DNA from: Arcobacter nitrofigilis DSM 7299
GTDB lineage: Bacteria > Campylobacterota > Campylobacteria > Campylobacterales > Arcobacteraceae
Length of the DNA: 64,000 bases
Direction: 5' to 3'
NCBI RefSeq assembly: GCF_000092245.1
Contig: NC_014166.1
Coordinates: forward strand, 744,001 to 808,000
Shown here: in pieces, positions 9,064-23,698 of the stretch
How positions within the stretch are numbered: the first letter of the stretch is position 1
How the letters are laid out: each line of letters begins with the position of its first letter
Notes under the pieces: generated by a model
What the model saw: the letters and a program-made list of their open reading frames with translations, nothing else
What the model was told of the DNA's origin: nothing
Databases searched by the model: none
Program-made: the position numbers and the translations under genes

Positions 9064-9140
9064 TGGCGCGGCTGAAGGGACTCGAACCCTCGACCTCCTG
9101 CGTGACAGGCAGGCGTTCTAACCAACTAAACTACAGCCGC
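9064..9140 (-). tRNA. tRNA-Asp (GTC), distal copy
   Basis: A 77-nt cloverleaf on the minus strand. The 7-bp acceptor GCGGCTG/CAGCCGC, anticodon stem-loop CCTGCCTGTCACGCAGG with GTC, T loop TTCGAGT and an encoded CCA are all visible. It is the last gene of the second repeat of the Lys-Glu-Val-Asp block in transcription order. Confidence 0.97.
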
Positions 9141-9156
9141 ACTATTATTTTAAAAA

Positions 9157-9232
9157 TGGTGGTCGATATAAGACTCGAACTTATGACATCTACCTTGTAA
9201 GGGTAGCGCTCTACCAACTGAGCTAATCGACC
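9157..9232 (-). tRNA. tRNA-Val (TAC), distal copy
   Basis: A 76-nt cloverleaf with acceptor GGTCGAT/ATCGACC, anticodon loop CTTACAA (anticodon TAC), T loop TTCGAGT and encoded CCA. Identical in the cloverleaf to the copy at 9525-9600. Confidence 0.97.
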
Positions 9233-9235
9233 GAT

Positions 9236-9310
9236 TGGTGACCCCTAGGAGACTCGAACTCCTGTGATTGGAATGAAAATCCAAGATCCTAACCGCTAGA
9301 TGAAGGGGCC
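9236..9310 (-). tRNA. tRNA-Glu (TTC), distal copy
   Basis: A 75-nt cloverleaf with acceptor GGCCCCT/AGGGGTC (one G-T pair), anticodon loop TTTTCAT (anticodon TTC) and encoded CCA. It is separated from tRNA-Val by only three bases, in both copies. Confidence 0.97.
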
Positions 9311-9341
9311 AATCGAAATATGTGAAATTTTACTTTAAAAG

Positions 9342-9417
9342 TGGTGACCCGTAATGGATTCGAACCATTGGCCCCCTCATTAAAAGTGAGATGCTCTACC
9401 AACTGAGCTAACGGGTC
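9342..9417 (-). tRNA. tRNA-Lys (TTT), distal copy
   Basis: A 76-nt cloverleaf with acceptor GACCCGT/ACGGGTC, anticodon loop CTTTTAA (anticodon TTT), T loop TTCGAAT and encoded CCA. Confidence 0.97.
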
Positions 9418-9425
9418 ATAAATAG

Positions 9426-9502
9426 TGGCGCGGCTGAAGGGACTCGAACCCTCGACCTCCTGCGTGACAGGCAGGCGTTCTAACCAACTAAACTACAGCC
9501 GC
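9426..9502 (-). tRNA. tRNA-Asp (GTC), proximal copy
   Basis: Same 77-nt sequence as the tRNA-Asp at 9064-9140, including the encoded CCA. It closes the first repeat unit in transcription order and is followed 8 bases later by the tRNA-Lys of the second unit. Confidence 0.97.
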
Positions 9503-9524
9503 ACTAATTTATAACACTTAAAAA

Positions 9525-9600
9525 TGGTGGTCGATATAAGACTCGAACTTATGACATCTACCTTGTAAGGGTAGCGCTCTACCAACTGAGCTAATCGACC
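9525..9600 (-). tRNA. tRNA-Val (TAC), proximal copy
   Basis: Same 76-nt cloverleaf as at 9157-9232, anticodon TAC, encoded CCA. Confidence 0.97.
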
Positions 9601-9603
9601 GAT

Positions 9604-9678
9604 TGGTGACCCCTAGGAGACTCGAACTCCTGTGATTGGAATGAAAATCCAAGATCCTAACCGCTAGATGAAGGGGCC
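9604..9678 (-). tRNA. tRNA-Glu (TTC), proximal copy
   Basis: Same 75-nt cloverleaf as at 9236-9310, anticodon TTC, encoded CCA, three bases from tRNA-Val. Confidence 0.97.
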
Positions 9679-9720
9679 AATCGAAATAATGTATATTAAA
9701 AAAATAAACATTTTAATTAA

Positions 9721-9796
9721 TGGTGACCCGTAATGGATTCGAACCATTGGCCCCCTCATTAAAAGTGAGATGCTCTACCAACTGAGCTAACGGGTC
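9721..9796 (-). tRNA. tRNA-Lys (TTT), proximal copy, first of the operon
   Basis: Same 76-nt cloverleaf as at 9342-9417, anticodon TTT, encoded CCA. It is the first gene behind the consensus promoter at 9819-9847, with a predicted leader of about 15 bases. Confidence 0.97.
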
Positions 9797-17935: not shown

Positions 17936-18841
17936 TCAATCTCTATTTTTTAGGTAAATATAAAAAATTAAAAAAATTATTCCTATAAAAAGAGGGTAAA
18001 AGAATAGGTAATCTTTTAAGATTAAAGTATTTTTATCAATATCTGATTTTTCTAATTTGTTTATTGTATTATAAACTTCTACTAAATCATCTTTAGAATT
18101 AGCAAGGAAAGATTTTGCCCCAGTTTCTTGAGAAATAGTACTCAACATTTGTCTATTTGATTCCCCAATACCAATTGTATATATTTTTATTTTATATTTT
18201 TTTGCAAGTTTTAGTATGATTTGAGGAGGGATTTTACTTGCGTTATCTTCTCCATCTGTTAATAATATAATAATATTTGATTTTGCTTTACTATTTTTTA
18301 ATATATTTATTGAAGTTGCAAGGGAATCAAACATCGCTGTTTGTTCACCAACAATTCCAATATCAATGTATTTTATAATCTCTTTTTGTGAATTCTTATC
18401 AAAACTTAAAGGCGAGGCTGTTAGTACTGAAGTTCCAAAAACCACTAATCCAATATTGTCATTTACTCTTTTTTCAATAAAATCTTGAACAACATTATTT
18501 ACAACATTCCATCTATTTTGTTGTAAATCATTTGGATTAAAACCACGTTCTCTCATAGAACCACTTGTGTCTAAATCCAAAATGATATTAATACCGTCTT
18601 TTTTTAAAAGTTGATTATTTAAGATTTTAACAGGTGAAGCGAGGGCAACTAAAGTCAAAATGATAGTTAAATATTTGCATATATAAACAATTATATTTGT
18701 ATTATAAGTTAATTGTTTAAATATTTTAAGGTGTACAAAATAATAAGATGAATTTTTTGCCTTACAATACATATCGCAAAAGATAAAAACAAATATAAGC
18801 GCTAAAACCCAAGGGTATTCAAAAGAAAAATTACTAAACAT
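17936..18841 (-). CDS. BatA-type von Willebrand factor A membrane protein
   Basis: A 301-residue protein with N-terminal hydrophobic segments (about 10-25 and 55-75), a vWA domain (about 85-265) and a C-terminal membrane helix (about 275-295). The metal-binding MIDAS site is intact: LDLDTSGSMRERG gives the D.S.S triad, TAMFDS supplies the Thr and LLTDGEDN the Asp. This is the architecture of Bat/BatA proteins encoded in MoxR operons, which are linked to envelope stress resistance and metal-centre or complex assembly. It overlaps the upstream DUF4381-like gene by 8 bases. In other bacteria a second vWA protein follows; here a membrane OmpA-like protein takes that place. Confidence 0.87.
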   Translation of the reverse strand: MFSNFSFEYPWVLALIFVFIFCDMYCKAKNSSYYFVHLKIFKQLTYNTNIIVYICKYLTIILTLVALASPVKILNNQLLKKDGINIILDLDTSGSMRERGFNPNDLQQNRWNVVNNVVQDFIEKRVNDNIGLVVFGTSVLTASPLSFDKNSQKEIIKYIDIGIVGEQTAMFDSLATSINILKNSKAKSNIIILLTDGEDNASKIPPQIILKLAKKYKIKIYTIGIGESNRQMLSTISQETGAKSFLANSKDDLVEVYNTINKLEKSDIDKNTLILKDYLFFYPLFIGIIFLIFYIYLKNRD

Positions 18842-19217
18842 CTATTGTTTCCATAAAAAGTTCATATTTTTGTAAAATATTATTTTCAAATTTTTTTACA
18901 TCTTTTTTATATTTATACTCTTCTAATAGAGTTATTAATTCTTCAGATATTTTTATTTCTCGTTCATTTTTTGCTAGTTTTCTTGCATAGAATGTTATTT
19001 GATATGCTGCATTTTTAGTATCACTTAAGTTTATATTTTTAATTGTTTCATAATATTTTTTTCTTGGATTTTTTTTGTTTTTAAAAAATCTATAAATTAA
19101 ATATCCAACAAAGCCAATAATAACTATGCCTAAAACAATAAGAAGTATTAAAATATAAAAAGAGATATCAGGAATACTTACTAAGTTTTTTATATCATTT
19201 ATTTTTAATTCATTCAT
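18834..19217 (-). CDS. DUF4381-like membrane protein of the MoxR operon
   Basis: A 127-residue protein. A short periplasmic N-terminus (LKINDIKNLVSIPDISF) precedes one membrane helix (about 21-44), then a basic linker and a helical cytosolic domain with AAYQITFYARKLA. This order and the position between DUF58 and vWA genes match DUF4381-type proteins. The start ATG at 19217 overlaps, as ATGA, the stop that the DUF58 gene would have if its A9 tract were one base shorter. That overlap supports both the start chosen here and the repaired reading of the neighbour. Molecular role is not known. Confidence 0.7.
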   Translation of the reverse strand: MNELKINDIKNLVSIPDISFYILILLIVLGIVIIGFVGYLIYRFFKNKKNPRKKYYETIKNINLSDTKNAAYQITFYARKLAKNEREIKISEELITLLEEYKYKKDVKKFENNILQKYELFMETIDV

Positions 19218-20051
19218 TTATTCACCAATGTAATTATTTTTGAAACTGGTTCTTCATGGGTATATATTTTTGTAAATCTTACATTGCACTTTTGTAAATG
19301 ATAAAATAAATCATGGTCATTTTTTTTTGATAAATGCTTTATAATCATTGATTGAGTATTTATCAATGACTCCTTCAAATTTTAATCCATTATTTGTATC
19401 AACTAAACTTGCATTTCCTAATTCTTGAGGGTTTTCTTCAAAAATATCTCTAACTATTATTACAAATATTTCATGCTTTTGTGATAACAGTTTTAAATCA
19501 AAACCTTCAATTTCAATAAAGTCCCCGATTAAGAATAAGATTGATTTCATTTTTATTAATTTAAAGGATTCATTACATAAAAGTTTATAATTAATCTCTT
19601 TTCCTATTGGATTATAGTTAAAAATGGTATCACTCATATTTGCTACACTTGCAAGTTTTTTACTTCTTTTTGTGATATTTTCAAATTTTTCATTTACTAT
19701 AAAAGAAGAGAAAGGATCCCCTTGTTTTATACTTGAATAAGCTAAAAGTGAACAAATTTCAGTTACTAAATCTTGTTTTATTTTTTTAGTCCCAAAAATC
19801 ATACTTCCACTTAATATTGGCAATATATTTATATTGAGCTCTTTTTGTGCATGAAAAACTTTCACATAAGGAGTATTCATTTTAGCACTTATAGTCCAGT
19901 CAATATTTTTAATATCTTCACCAGCTTCATATTCTCTTAATTCTAAGAAATCATAACCTTCACCTTTTAGATTAGAACTATTATTTCCAGAGATTTCTGT
20001 AAAGACTTGTTTTTTTGTTTTAATTAAAATTTTTTTTAAATTTTTATTCAT
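19214..20051 (-). pseudogene. DUF58 protein, C-terminus cut by a +1 A in an A9 tract
   Basis: A DUF58 family protein of the MoxR operon. It has the typical core LREYEAGEDIKNIDWTISAK near residue 35, which belongs to the conserved Y..GD..R.IDW.. pattern. As sequenced it stops at 19317 after 244 residues, directly behind an A9 tract (19320-19328). With eight A the frame continues as NDHDLFYHLQKCNVRF, then TKIYTHEEPVSKIITLVNK, and stops at TGA 19216-19214. This adds about 35 residues typical of the DUF58 C-terminus. The repaired stop overlaps the next ATG as ATGA, the normal coupling in such operons. So the gene is either slippage- or phase-controlled, recently mutated, or contains a sequencing error. 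Confidence 0.82.
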
Positions 20052-20054
20052 ATC

Positions 20055-21005
20055 TTATGGAATTTCAACTTTTTCAATTACTTTTTGTAAAATATAATCA
20101 CTAGTTATATCCATAGCTTGTGCTTCATAAGATAAAACAATTCTATGCCTTACTATATCTTTAAATATCAAAGCAATATCTATTGGAGTTACATGGTCAT
20201 TGCCTCTTATAAAGGCATTTGCTTTAGCAGCTTTAAACATATCTATTGTTGCTCTTGGACTTGCTCCAAATTGAATATAATCTTTAATCTCTTGTAATCC
20301 ATAATTTTCAGGTTCTCTTGTCGCAAAAATAAGATTTACAATATATTTTTCAACTTCTTCATCTATATGTACATTTACAACTGCTTTTTTTAACTCAATT
20401 AGATCTTCATGAGAAGCTACTTTATTTGGAGTTTCAAATGAGTTTAAAGTTACACTTTTAGCTATTTTAAATTCTTCTTCTTTTGAATTATAATCAATCA
20501 AAATCTTAAACATAAATCTATCAAGTTGAGCTTCAGGAAGTTCATAAGCTCCTTGTGATTCAATTGGATTTTGAGTAGCAAGAACTAAAAATGGAAGTTC
20601 CAAAGAGTATGTTTCATCTGCAATTGTCACTTGTTTTTCTTGCATAACTTCTAATAGGGCTGATTGAACTTTTGCTGGTGCTCTATTTATCTCATCTGCT
20701 AACAAAAGATTTGTAAAAATTGGACCTCTTTTTATTTTGAAATCACCACTTTTCATATCATAAATTTGTGCACCAATAATATCACTAGGAAGTAAATCGG
20801 GAGTAAATTGAACCCTTTTAAATCTTAAATCAATTACATCTGCAACAGCTTTTACTGTTGTTGTTTTTGCAAGTCCAGGTACCCCTTCTATAAGAATATG
20901 ACCATTTGTTAATAGTCCTATTAAGATAGAATTAACCATATCTTCTTGACCAATAACAACTTTAGATATTTCATTTTTAATTTCTGTGATTTTTGTGTAT
21001 AACAT
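20055..21005 (-). CDS. MoxR-family AAA+ ATPase
   Basis: A 316-residue AAA+ ATPase. The Walker A motif is GVPGLAKTTT near residue 40, Walker B is LLLADEINRAPAK near 107, and sensor 1 is ATQNPIESQG near 147, followed by the conserved ELPEAQLDRFMFK. A C-terminal lid domain (AAA_lid_2) follows. MoxR proteins act as chaperones for assembly or metal insertion together with vWA proteins. This gene begins the operon MoxR, DUF58, DUF4381-like, vWA and OmpA-like, with 3-base spacing to DUF58. Client proteins are not identifiable from the sequence. Confidence 0.95.
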   Translation of the reverse strand: MLYTKITEIKNEISKVVIGQEDMVNSILIGLLTNGHILIEGVPGLAKTTTVKAVADVIDLRFKRVQFTPDLLPSDIIGAQIYDMKSGDFKIKRGPIFTNLLLADEINRAPAKVQSALLEVMQEKQVTIADETYSLELPFLVLATQNPIESQGAYELPEAQLDRFMFKILIDYNSKEEEFKIAKSVTLNSFETPNKVASHEDLIELKKAVVNVHIDEEVEKYIVNLIFATREPENYGLQEIKDYIQFGASPRATIDMFKAAKANAFIRGNDHVTPIDIALIFKDIVRHRIVLSYEAQAMDITSDYILQKVIEKVEIP

Positions 21006-21315: not shown

Positions 21316-21891
21316 ATGTCAAAGAAAAAGAAGTTTTTTGGTTTAATTATTATTATTATTCTTCTAGCAACTATTTTTTCAACAGCCTTACCAATACTTT
21401 ATTCTAATGATAAAGCAGGGAAGGTAAATAAAGAAATTCAAAATATACATTTTGATTTTTTAAAAAATGAAACTAAAGAGTATGTACTCCTATTCTTTGG
21501 TTATGCAGGTTGTGATAATATTTGTCCTCCAGCATTAAGTGCGATAAGTCAAATATATAATAAGTTAGATAAAAAACAATTCAGTTTTTATTTTATAAAT
21601 CTACAGCCCAATATATTTAAAGATGAGGTGGATCCTTTTGCTAAGGCTTTTAATAAAGACTTCAAAGGAATCTATTTAGACAATAAAAAACTAATTGACA
21701 TAACAACAAAACTTCAAGTAAAATATTCACCTATAAATAGTATTGATGTGGACCATACAGGTTTTTTATATCTATTAGAAAAAAGTGATAATGATATGTA
21801 TAAACAAAAATTTATCTATACTGCAAGACCATTTGATATTGAATATATATCAAATGATTTAAATACAATAAAAAGGGCTAACAATGATTAA
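21316..21891 (+). CDS. SCO1/SenC-like thioredoxin-fold protein
   Basis: A 191-residue membrane-anchored periplasmic protein. The N-terminus (SKKKKFFGLIIIIILLATIF) is an uncleaved or cleavable signal anchor. The SCO motif C-x3-C is present as Cys66 and Cys70 in GYAGCDNICPP, and the third copper ligand His lies in VDHTGFLYL near residue 147. SCO proteins bind copper and take part in CuA/cytochrome oxidase assembly or thiol redox control. Unusually it overlaps by 8 bases a chemoreceptor gene rather than an oxidase gene, which suggests a sensory or redox-signalling role here. That link is inference. Confidence 0.85.
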   Translation: MSKKKKFFGLIIIIILLATIFSTALPILYSNDKAGKVNKEIQNIHFDFLKNETKEYVLLFFGYAGCDNICPPALSAISQIYNKLDKKQFSFYFINLQPNIFKDEVDPFAKAFNKDFKGIYLDNKKLIDITTKLQVKYSPINSIDVDHTGFLYLLEKSDNDMYKQKFIYTARPFDIEYISNDLNTIKRANND

Positions 21892-23698
21892 AATACTTTT
21901 CCCATTTTTAGATAAAAGTTTATCTAAAGAGATTCAAGCAAGTTTAGTTAAAGAGTATGAAACTGCAGATAAAATGATGCTTATAGTCTCAGTAGTAAGT
22001 TTTTTAATTGTGTCACTAATAACTTCATATTCTAATGGAGCTTATAAAATTGGAATTATTGGTGGGGGGATAACTTTAGCCTCTACTATCATAGCCTACA
22101 CAATGTTTAAGGGAACTGTACTTTCACGTATTATTTTTGGTACAGCCTTTACTGTTTACCCAGCTATTATGGTCTCTCAACAGCTTGGTATGATAGAGAT
22201 GCACTTTTTCTTTTTTGTTTATGTTGCAGCTCTTGTAGTGTATAAAGACCTTACTGCAATTTTAGCAATGACTGTGGTAACAGGTATACACCACTTGGTA
22301 TTCACATATTTACAATTAAATGGTGTTAGTATTATGGGGAATGAAATTATATTGATGAGTACAAACTGTAGTTGGTTATTTACTTTTATTCATATTATTG
22401 TATTCGTTTTTGAAGAAATAGTTCTTATTTATATTGTTTATTCCGTAATAAAACAGTTTATTGAAGCTAAAAAACTTCAGCTAGAAGCAACAGCTTCATT
22501 TGAAAAGTTACAAAAAGAAACTTTACTAAATAAAAGTATTATAGATGAAACTATTGAAGTAGCAAATAGTGTTAATGAAGGGAAACTAACAAAAAGAGTT
22601 CACTCAGATACTACAGATGAGAATATTAAGTCACTAAAAGAGATTATAAATAATATGATGGATAATTTAGAAAATAAAATTGCAGATGATATTAACAAAA
22701 TCTCAAGTGTATTGGAAAACTTTACAAATTATAATTTTACTACAAAAGTTGATTCTAAAGGTGAAACTGCTGAGAATCTAAATAAATTAGCAGATGGCAT
22801 TACCAAAATTTTAATTGAAGATAAACAAAATGGGCTTATTATTCAAAATAGTGCTATGATATTATCTACAACTGTAAAAACACTAAATGACTCTTCAAAT
22901 CAAGCTGCAGCTTCACTTGAAGAAACAGCCGCAGCAGTGGAAGAGATAACATCTATTATCAAATCAAGTAATGCAAACATCAATAAAATGTTTACCCTTG
23001 CAAATAATTTAAATAGCTCTGCACAAGAGGGTGAGAATCTAGCAACAAAAACAAGTACCTCTATGGAAGATATAAATGCACAAGTCCAAGCTATCAATGA
23101 TTCTATCACAGTGATTGATCAAATAGCTTTCCAAACAAATATCCTTTCACTAAATGCTGCTGTTGAAGCTGCTACTGCGGGGGAAGCAGGAAAAGGGTTT
23201 GCAGTTGTTGCACAAGAGGTAAGAAACCTTGCATCACGTTCAGCTGAGGCAGCAAAAGAGATAAAAGATTTAGTAGAAAATGCTACAATAAAAGCAAATG
23301 AAGGTAAAACTATTGCATCTGAAATGATAGGTGGATATAGTGATTTAACTAGTAAAATTAGTGAAGCAATTGAATTAATCACAAGTGTTACAGATGCAAG
23401 TAAAGAACAAGAAGCAGGAATTGTGCAAATTAATGATGCAATCAACTCTTTAGATAAACAAACTCAACAAAATGCTTCAGTAGCAAATCAAACAAATGAA
23501 ATAGCAATTCAAACTCAACAAATTGCAGAGACAATTTTAAAAAGTGCTGATGAAAAAGAGTTTATTGGTAAAGATACAGTTCAAGCAACAAAACTTGAAA
23601 AAGTAAATAGTGTTAAACCTGAAAAGAAAAAAGAGCAAGTAGAAGTAAAGGCGAAAACTATAGTAGATTCAAATAATGATGAGTGGGAGAACTTTTAA
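21884..23698 (+). CDS. Methyl-accepting chemotaxis protein with His-rich membrane sensor
   Basis: A 604-residue chemoreceptor. The N-terminal 200 residues form about six membrane helices without a periplasmic ligand domain. Intramembrane histidines occur in MIEMHFFFFVYVAALVVYKD, in TGIHHLVFTY and in FIHIIVFVFEE. A linker (about 205-320) leads to the cytosolic signalling domain, with the hairpin tip QTNILSLNAAVEAATAGEAG near residues 415-435 for CheA/CheW contact. The protein ends in EWENF, which matches the xWxxF tether for CheR/CheB known from NWETF in enteric receptors. The gene overlaps the SCO-like gene by 8 bases, so both are made together. Sensing of redox state, copper or oxygen is inferred from this pairing. 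Confidence 0.9.
   Translation: MIKILFPFLDKSLSKEIQASLVKEYETADKMMLIVSVVSFLIVSLITSYSNGAYKIGIIGGGITLASTIIAYTMFKGTVLSRIIFGTAFTVYPAIMVSQQLGMIEMHFFFFVYVAALVVYKDLTAILAMTVVTGIHHLVFTYLQLNGVSIMGNEIILMSTNCSWLFTFIHIIVFVFEEIVLIYIVYSVIKQFIEAKKLQLEATASFEKLQKETLLNKSIIDETIEVANSVNEGKLTKRVHSDTTDENIKSLKEIINNMMDNLENKIADDINKISSVLENFTNYNFTTKVDSKGETAENLNKLADGITKILIEDKQNGLIIQNSAMILSTTVKTLNDSSNQAAASLEETAAAVEEITSIIKSSNANINKMFTLANNLNSSAQEGENLATKTSTSMEDINAQVQAINDSITVIDQIAFQTNILSLNAAVEAATAGEAGKGFAVVAQEVRNLASRSAEAAKEIKDLVENATIKANEGKTIASEMIGGYSDLTSKISEAIELITSVTDASKEQEAGIVQINDAINSLDKQTQQNASVANQTNEIAIQTQQIAETILKSADEKEFIGKDTVQATKLEKVNSVKPEKKKEQVEVKAKTIVDSNNDEWENF

Follow-up and report, generated by a model that had tools for sequence, protein, structure and literature searches.

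Precedents

In Rhodobacter, the SCO proteins SenC and PrrC are co-transcribed with the membrane redox sensors RegB and PrrB, and a copper or thiol link between the partners has been proposed (PMC9147068). With its conserved SCO ligands, this is the best precedent for the placement of an SCO protein beside a membrane redox sensor. A second relevant system is HtrVIII (Htr8) of Halobacterium salinarum, described as an aerotaxis transducer with six membrane segments and proposed to bind haem (review PMC13401364). Conventional SCO1 copper chaperones provide the reference for the SCO fold and its C-x3-C...H site. Integral membrane sensor domains combining with several outputs are exemplified by MHYT, which has been proposed to bind copper, and by the MASE domains. 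No description of an SCO-receptor pair or of the six-helix membrane domain analysed here was found in the literature searched; the preliminary description of the locus, which knew of no such system, agrees with this for the pair itself and has to be qualified by SenC/PrrC-RegB/PrrB and HtrVIII as precedents.

The SCO-chemoreceptor gene pair

The locus lies in a 64,000-nucleotide stretch of the genome of an Arcobacter-group member of the Campylobacterota (the window), where an SCO gene and a chemoreceptor gene reside on the same strand. An SCO protein with a C-x3-C...H site whose gene overlaps that of a chemoreceptor by 8 bases had been noted before, and the open reading frames at 21316-21891 and 21884-23698, together with C66, C70 and H147, agree with this; the earlier wording "fused in operon" is apt for two overlapping genes and not for a fused protein. 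The features of the pair are as follows:

21316..21891, + strand: SCO/SenC-type protein, 191 aa (open reading frame, PF02630, solved structures)
21337..21399, + strand: N-terminal membrane anchor of the SCO, approximately residues 8-28 (sequence; anchor conserved in the SCO alignment)
21511..21525, + strand: CxxxC motif of the SCO, C66 and C70 (invariant in 32 sensor-linked SCOs)
21754..21756, + strand: H147, predicted third metal ligand of the SCO (invariant, 32/32)
21884..21891, + strand: 8-bp overlap between SCO stop and receptor start (open reading frame coordinates)
21884..23698, + strand: chemoreceptor, 604 aa (open reading frame, domain search)
21884..22474, + strand: six-helix membrane sensor domain, residues 1-197 (no Pfam family; hydrophobic segments)
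22196..22204, + strand: E105 and H107, periplasmic end of helix 4 (H107 in 54/54)
22292..22294, + strand: H137, helix 5, periplasmic half (53/54)
22367..22369, + strand: C162, periplasmic start of helix 6 (34/34 SCO-linked Campylobacterota genes)
22391..22393, + strand: H170, helix 6, periplasmic half (53/54)
22997..23458, + strand: MCP signalling domain, residues 372-525 (MCPsignal match)
23681..23695, + strand: C-terminal EWENF (sequence)

The SCO protein

The window SCO scores 45.4 bits against PF02630 (E 9.9e-12; curated cut-off 22.8), matches solved SCO structures (2k6v at E 4.8e-8) and consists of an N-terminal membrane anchor followed by a periplasmic thioredoxin-fold domain; judged by its sequence, it is a true family member. 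An alignment of the sensor-linked SCOs showed C66, C70 and H147 to be invariant. Although fold and C-x3-C...H site are shared with conventional SCO1, the sensor-linked proteins form a subclass of their own: in a PF02630 search of 104 genomes of the window's taxonomic family, conventional SCOs scored 118-140 bits, whereas members of the divergent class reached 44-54 bits and are encoded by frames of 183-198 aa. Other low-scoring matches, which have longer frames (e.g., 259-281 aa) or cover only part of the profile, represent further classes and lie outside the divergent-class count. The divergent class occurs in nine of the 104 genomes and adjoins a six-helix gene in every one of them (in G012 by sharing its operon; hypergeometric P 3.6e-12), and the same search found no member of it away from a sensor gene. 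A second SCO of the window genome, with 29% identity to the window SCO over 115 residues, is located with a PCuAC-like gene. As this is the usual setting of a copper chaperone, the role in oxidase assembly is probably served by this separate protein rather than by the sensor-linked SCO, in contrast to SenC, which also serves the assembly of cbb3 oxidase.

The six-helix membrane domain

Residues 1-200 of the receptor matched no Pfam or NCBIfam domain. They contain six hydrophobic segments, with K/R in loops 1-30, 76-82, 120-125 and after residue 190, and almost no K/R in the periplasmic loops 50-55, 98-106 and 144-163. This charge distribution points to six membrane helices with both ends in the cytoplasm, and a largest periplasmic loop of about 20 residues leaves no periplasmic ligand domain, in agreement with the preliminary description. 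From its MCP domain and its membrane helices lacking a periplasmic domain, the receptor is assigned to the class III chemoreceptors; its C-terminal EWENF resembles the pentapeptide that tethers CheR and CheB. An AlphaFold model of residues 1-200 reached a pLDDT of 47, which makes it usable for the helix count only and not for whether the His residues meet. A search of the PDB with the domain profile returned EmrE alone at E 0.3, which is not meaningful.

His residues in three helices had been singled out as a plausible haem or copper site, and the motifs MHFFFF (H107), IHHLVF (H136/H137) and IHIIVF (H170) are present in the receptor. Residues were counted in 54 domains, of which 41 are from Campylobacterota and 13 are plasmid-borne (Gamma- and Alphaproteobacteria, Acidobacteriota, haloarchaea). 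H107 is conserved in all 54, and H137 and H170 are each conserved in 53, the sole exception being L038, a sequence without an SCO in which both are missing; nearly all sequences also keep E/D105 and D122. The conservation in homologues, on which the preliminary description had made its reading depend, thus holds for a core of H107, H137 and H170 with E/D105. It does not extend to H136, which only 41 of 49 sequences keep and which was rejected as a site residue. Estimated from the centres of the hydrophobic segments, H107 lies ~10 Å, H137 ~7 Å and H170 ~8 Å above the membrane mid-plane on the periplasmic side, and this arrangement in one layer is consistent with a single site. The metal/thiol site of the SCO and the three receptor His are under near-absolute constraint.

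The cysteine C162 is present in all 34 SCO-linked Campylobacterota genes, lost in two of the seven unlinked ones (P 0.026), of which five retain it with all three His, and absent where the partner is not an SCO; it is also found in the SCO-receptor pair of a Marinobacter plasmid, but the Marinobacter domain groups with those of Campylobacterota and is therefore not independent, so that the correlation between C162 and SCO is confounded by descent.

The domain differs from RegB and from the MHYT and MASE domains. RegB is a histidine kinase, whereas the window receptor has an MCP output. The quinone-binding heptapeptide of RegB, GGxxNPF, is absent from all 49 six-helix domains searched, and the family is defined by its His triad instead; as far as these motifs tell, the six-helix domain is not RegB. 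A Pfam match to MHYT or MASE was found in none of 49 members at E values up to 1.

Linkage and co-evolution in Campylobacterota

The domain is rare but scattered: within the family it was found in 10 of 104 genomes, within the phylum in 26 of 397. Gene neighbourhoods were surveyed for 41 distinct evaluable genes from 31 Campylobacterota genomes, with the exclusion of a broken copy at the edge of a contig in G081. Of the 41, 31 have an SCO gene immediately upstream and two have one immediately downstream, mostly with overlaps of 1-17 bp between the SCO and sensor genes. In G012 the SCO gene is two genes downstream and co-directional, which brings the genes with an SCO in the same operon to 34; seven have no SCO nearby. 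The recurrence of the pair in other genomes had been set as a test of the preliminary description, and adjacency is found in 33/41 genes, compared with a chance expectation of ~0.3% under a generous background. Two minor observations were made at these loci. In an Arcobacter sp. CECT 8985-like genome (L012, and the start of L003), a broken copy of a six-helix receptor with in-frame stops lies at a contig edge. In one genus of the Arcobacter group, the SCO gene is preceded by an extra open reading frame of ~192 aa, membrane-anchored and without a Pfam match (L008 212-790, L010 2778-3359).

The trees of SCOs and membrane domains, compared over 34 pairs, gave a Mantel r of 0.79, which was reached in 0 of 5000 permutations. 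Three genomes contain two or three pairs each; of the 72 possible ways of matching SCOs to receptors within these genomes, the true one gave the best correlation. SCOs and membrane sensors are thus co-encoded and co-evolving, which establishes a functional linkage and not its chemistry. An accidental placement or hitch-hiking of an oxidase-assembly SCO beside a receptor gene, to which the seven unlinked genes and otherwise only the usual role of SCO proteins could be credited, is contradicted by adjacency, co-occurrence, co-evolution and the separate conventional SCO, and is highly improbable.

The outputs attached to the 41 domains, assigned by Pfam for representatives and by motifs for the rest, comprise 13 MCPs, 12 hybrid histidine kinases, two PAS kinases, 13 GGDEF-EAL types and one PAS-SpoIIE phosphatase. 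At least six output changes are needed on the domain tree, a count that leaves out L007, a PAS kinase nested among the MCPs. Since SCO and membrane domain stay constant while the output changes, the membrane domain is the most likely target of the SCO and probably its partner. The earlier idea of a chemotaxis sensor with an SCO partner is therefore borne out by co-occurrence, adjacency, co-evolution and conserved residues. It was too narrow in two respects: the pair is also coupled to hybrid kinase, PAS kinase and GGDEF-EAL outputs, and the SCO is one of several partners.

Other lineages and alternative partners

All evidence from outside Campylobacterota comes from plasmid records. On the Marinobacter plasmid the SCO-receptor pair recurs, its genes overlapping by 4 bp after correction of the receptor start. 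In Pseudoalteromonas, Alteromonas and a conjugative Pseudomonas aeruginosa plasmid, the adjacent gene encodes instead of an SCO a DUF6436 protein, which is membrane-anchored and has invariant cysteines; the P. aeruginosa plasmid (L044 4267-5966) combines DUF6436 with a shortened receptor of 331 aa. A kinship of DUF6436 with SCO as a thioredoxin-fold relative was not established, profile comparison giving a probability of 3.8%. In Rhizobiaceae, Sphingomonadaceae, Acetobacteraceae and Rhodobacter, a short membrane-anchored protein is encoded directly upstream, usually in an overlapping frame, and no homology of this protein to SCO or DUF6436 was seen. The receptor of a Vibrio megaplasmid overlaps a downstream membrane-anchored open reading frame of 139 aa without a Pfam match (L047 4365-4784), perhaps yet another type of partner. 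Among viral contigs, no relatives of the six-helix domain were found.

This exchange of partners around a constant membrane domain would be expected if the partners carried the specificity. On such a reading, sensing would reside in the SCO itself, which would bind copper in the periplasm or change its thiol state and dock on the membrane domain, the latter only transducing the event, as in other receptors with periplasmic partners. The invariance of the SCO site fits as well. However, the three membrane His, the most conserved residues, which persist even where no partner is found (haloarchaea), are left unexplained, and we consider this reading rather unlikely.

The haloarchaeal relatives are six-helix MCPs of 617-655 aa in which all three His are aligned, and at the four loci examined neither an SCO nor another evident partner was found, indicating that an SCO is not universally needed. 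A relationship of the six-helix domain with HtrVIII, compared by its description, is likely: in HtrVIII, as in the window receptor, six membrane segments are joined directly to an MCP domain, and the haloarchaeal MCPs of this build belong to the six-helix family, from whose SCO-linked members they differ by the missing partner. One relative, from Halobaculum (L045 412-5982), has a cbb3-type oxidase gene on one side and nirK on the other, a setting pointing to respiration or to NO or oxygen.

These relatives bring in a further alternative, namely that the six-helix domain is an HtrVIII-type oxygen sensor in which haem b is held by two of the three His, and that the SCO is accessory or keeps a periplasmic cysteine reduced. 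The shared His triad, the haem binding proposed for the six-segment transducer HtrVIII (PMC13401364) and the Halobaculum locus all speak for haem b. The invariant His, however, number three and not two and are accompanied by E/D105, and the strict retention of the copper ligands of the SCO argues for copper or thiol chemistry. A haem-b sensor is therefore unlikely, if a serious competitor.

A candidate mechanism

The reading that we prefer is that SCO and six-helix domain form one sensory unit in which the SCO loads or reads a three-His metal or redox site facing the periplasm and thereby controls the output; we give it a probability of roughly 0.5. In this mechanism, H107, H137 and H170 would form one metal site, most likely of copper (CuB-like) or haem-linked. 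Held by its membrane anchor, the SCO would dock on the periplasmic face of the receptor, possibly with C162 at the entrance of the site as its contact, and would either load copper into the His site or exchange thiols or electrons with it. Metal occupancy or oxidation state, set by copper supply, O2 or redox conditions, might then alter the packing of the helices, and the altered packing would drive the attached output, which in the window receptor is the MCP domain and then CheA. The SCO and the sensor family together suggest a form of copper, oxygen or redox sensing at the periplasmic surface of the inner membrane that has so far not been described.

A broader proposal is put forward more tentatively, at somewhat less than even odds: a widespread membrane metallo-sensor domain, so far undescribed, may have taken on the SCO as a signalling subunit dedicated to it. 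This domain, which carries the His triad in bacteria and haloarchaea, would connect to chemotaxis, kinase and c-di-GMP outputs, and its metal site would be loaded or read by periplasmic partners that can replace one another (SCO, DUF6436, short anchored proteins). In either form, a sensor domain without a database name, extending from Campylobacterota to haloarchaea, is defined together with a genetically linked partner. The signalling role of SCO proteins, long debated between copper chaperone and redox sensor, becomes concretely testable because chemotaxis, kinase activity or c-di-GMP can serve as the readout. A common frame may also emerge here for HtrVIII aerotaxis and for many orphan chemoreceptors that lack ligand domains.

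Surroundings of the pair

A MoxR/VWA-type operon (window 17936-21005, - strand) lies divergently upstream of the SCO-receptor pair. It is found upstream of the pair in G063 (L005) too but not in G068 (L004), which indicates that the pair moves independently of the operon. Elsewhere in the window (9064-9796, - strand), two tandem copies of a unit of four tRNAs (Asp, Val, Glu, Lys) make up a set of eight tRNAs.
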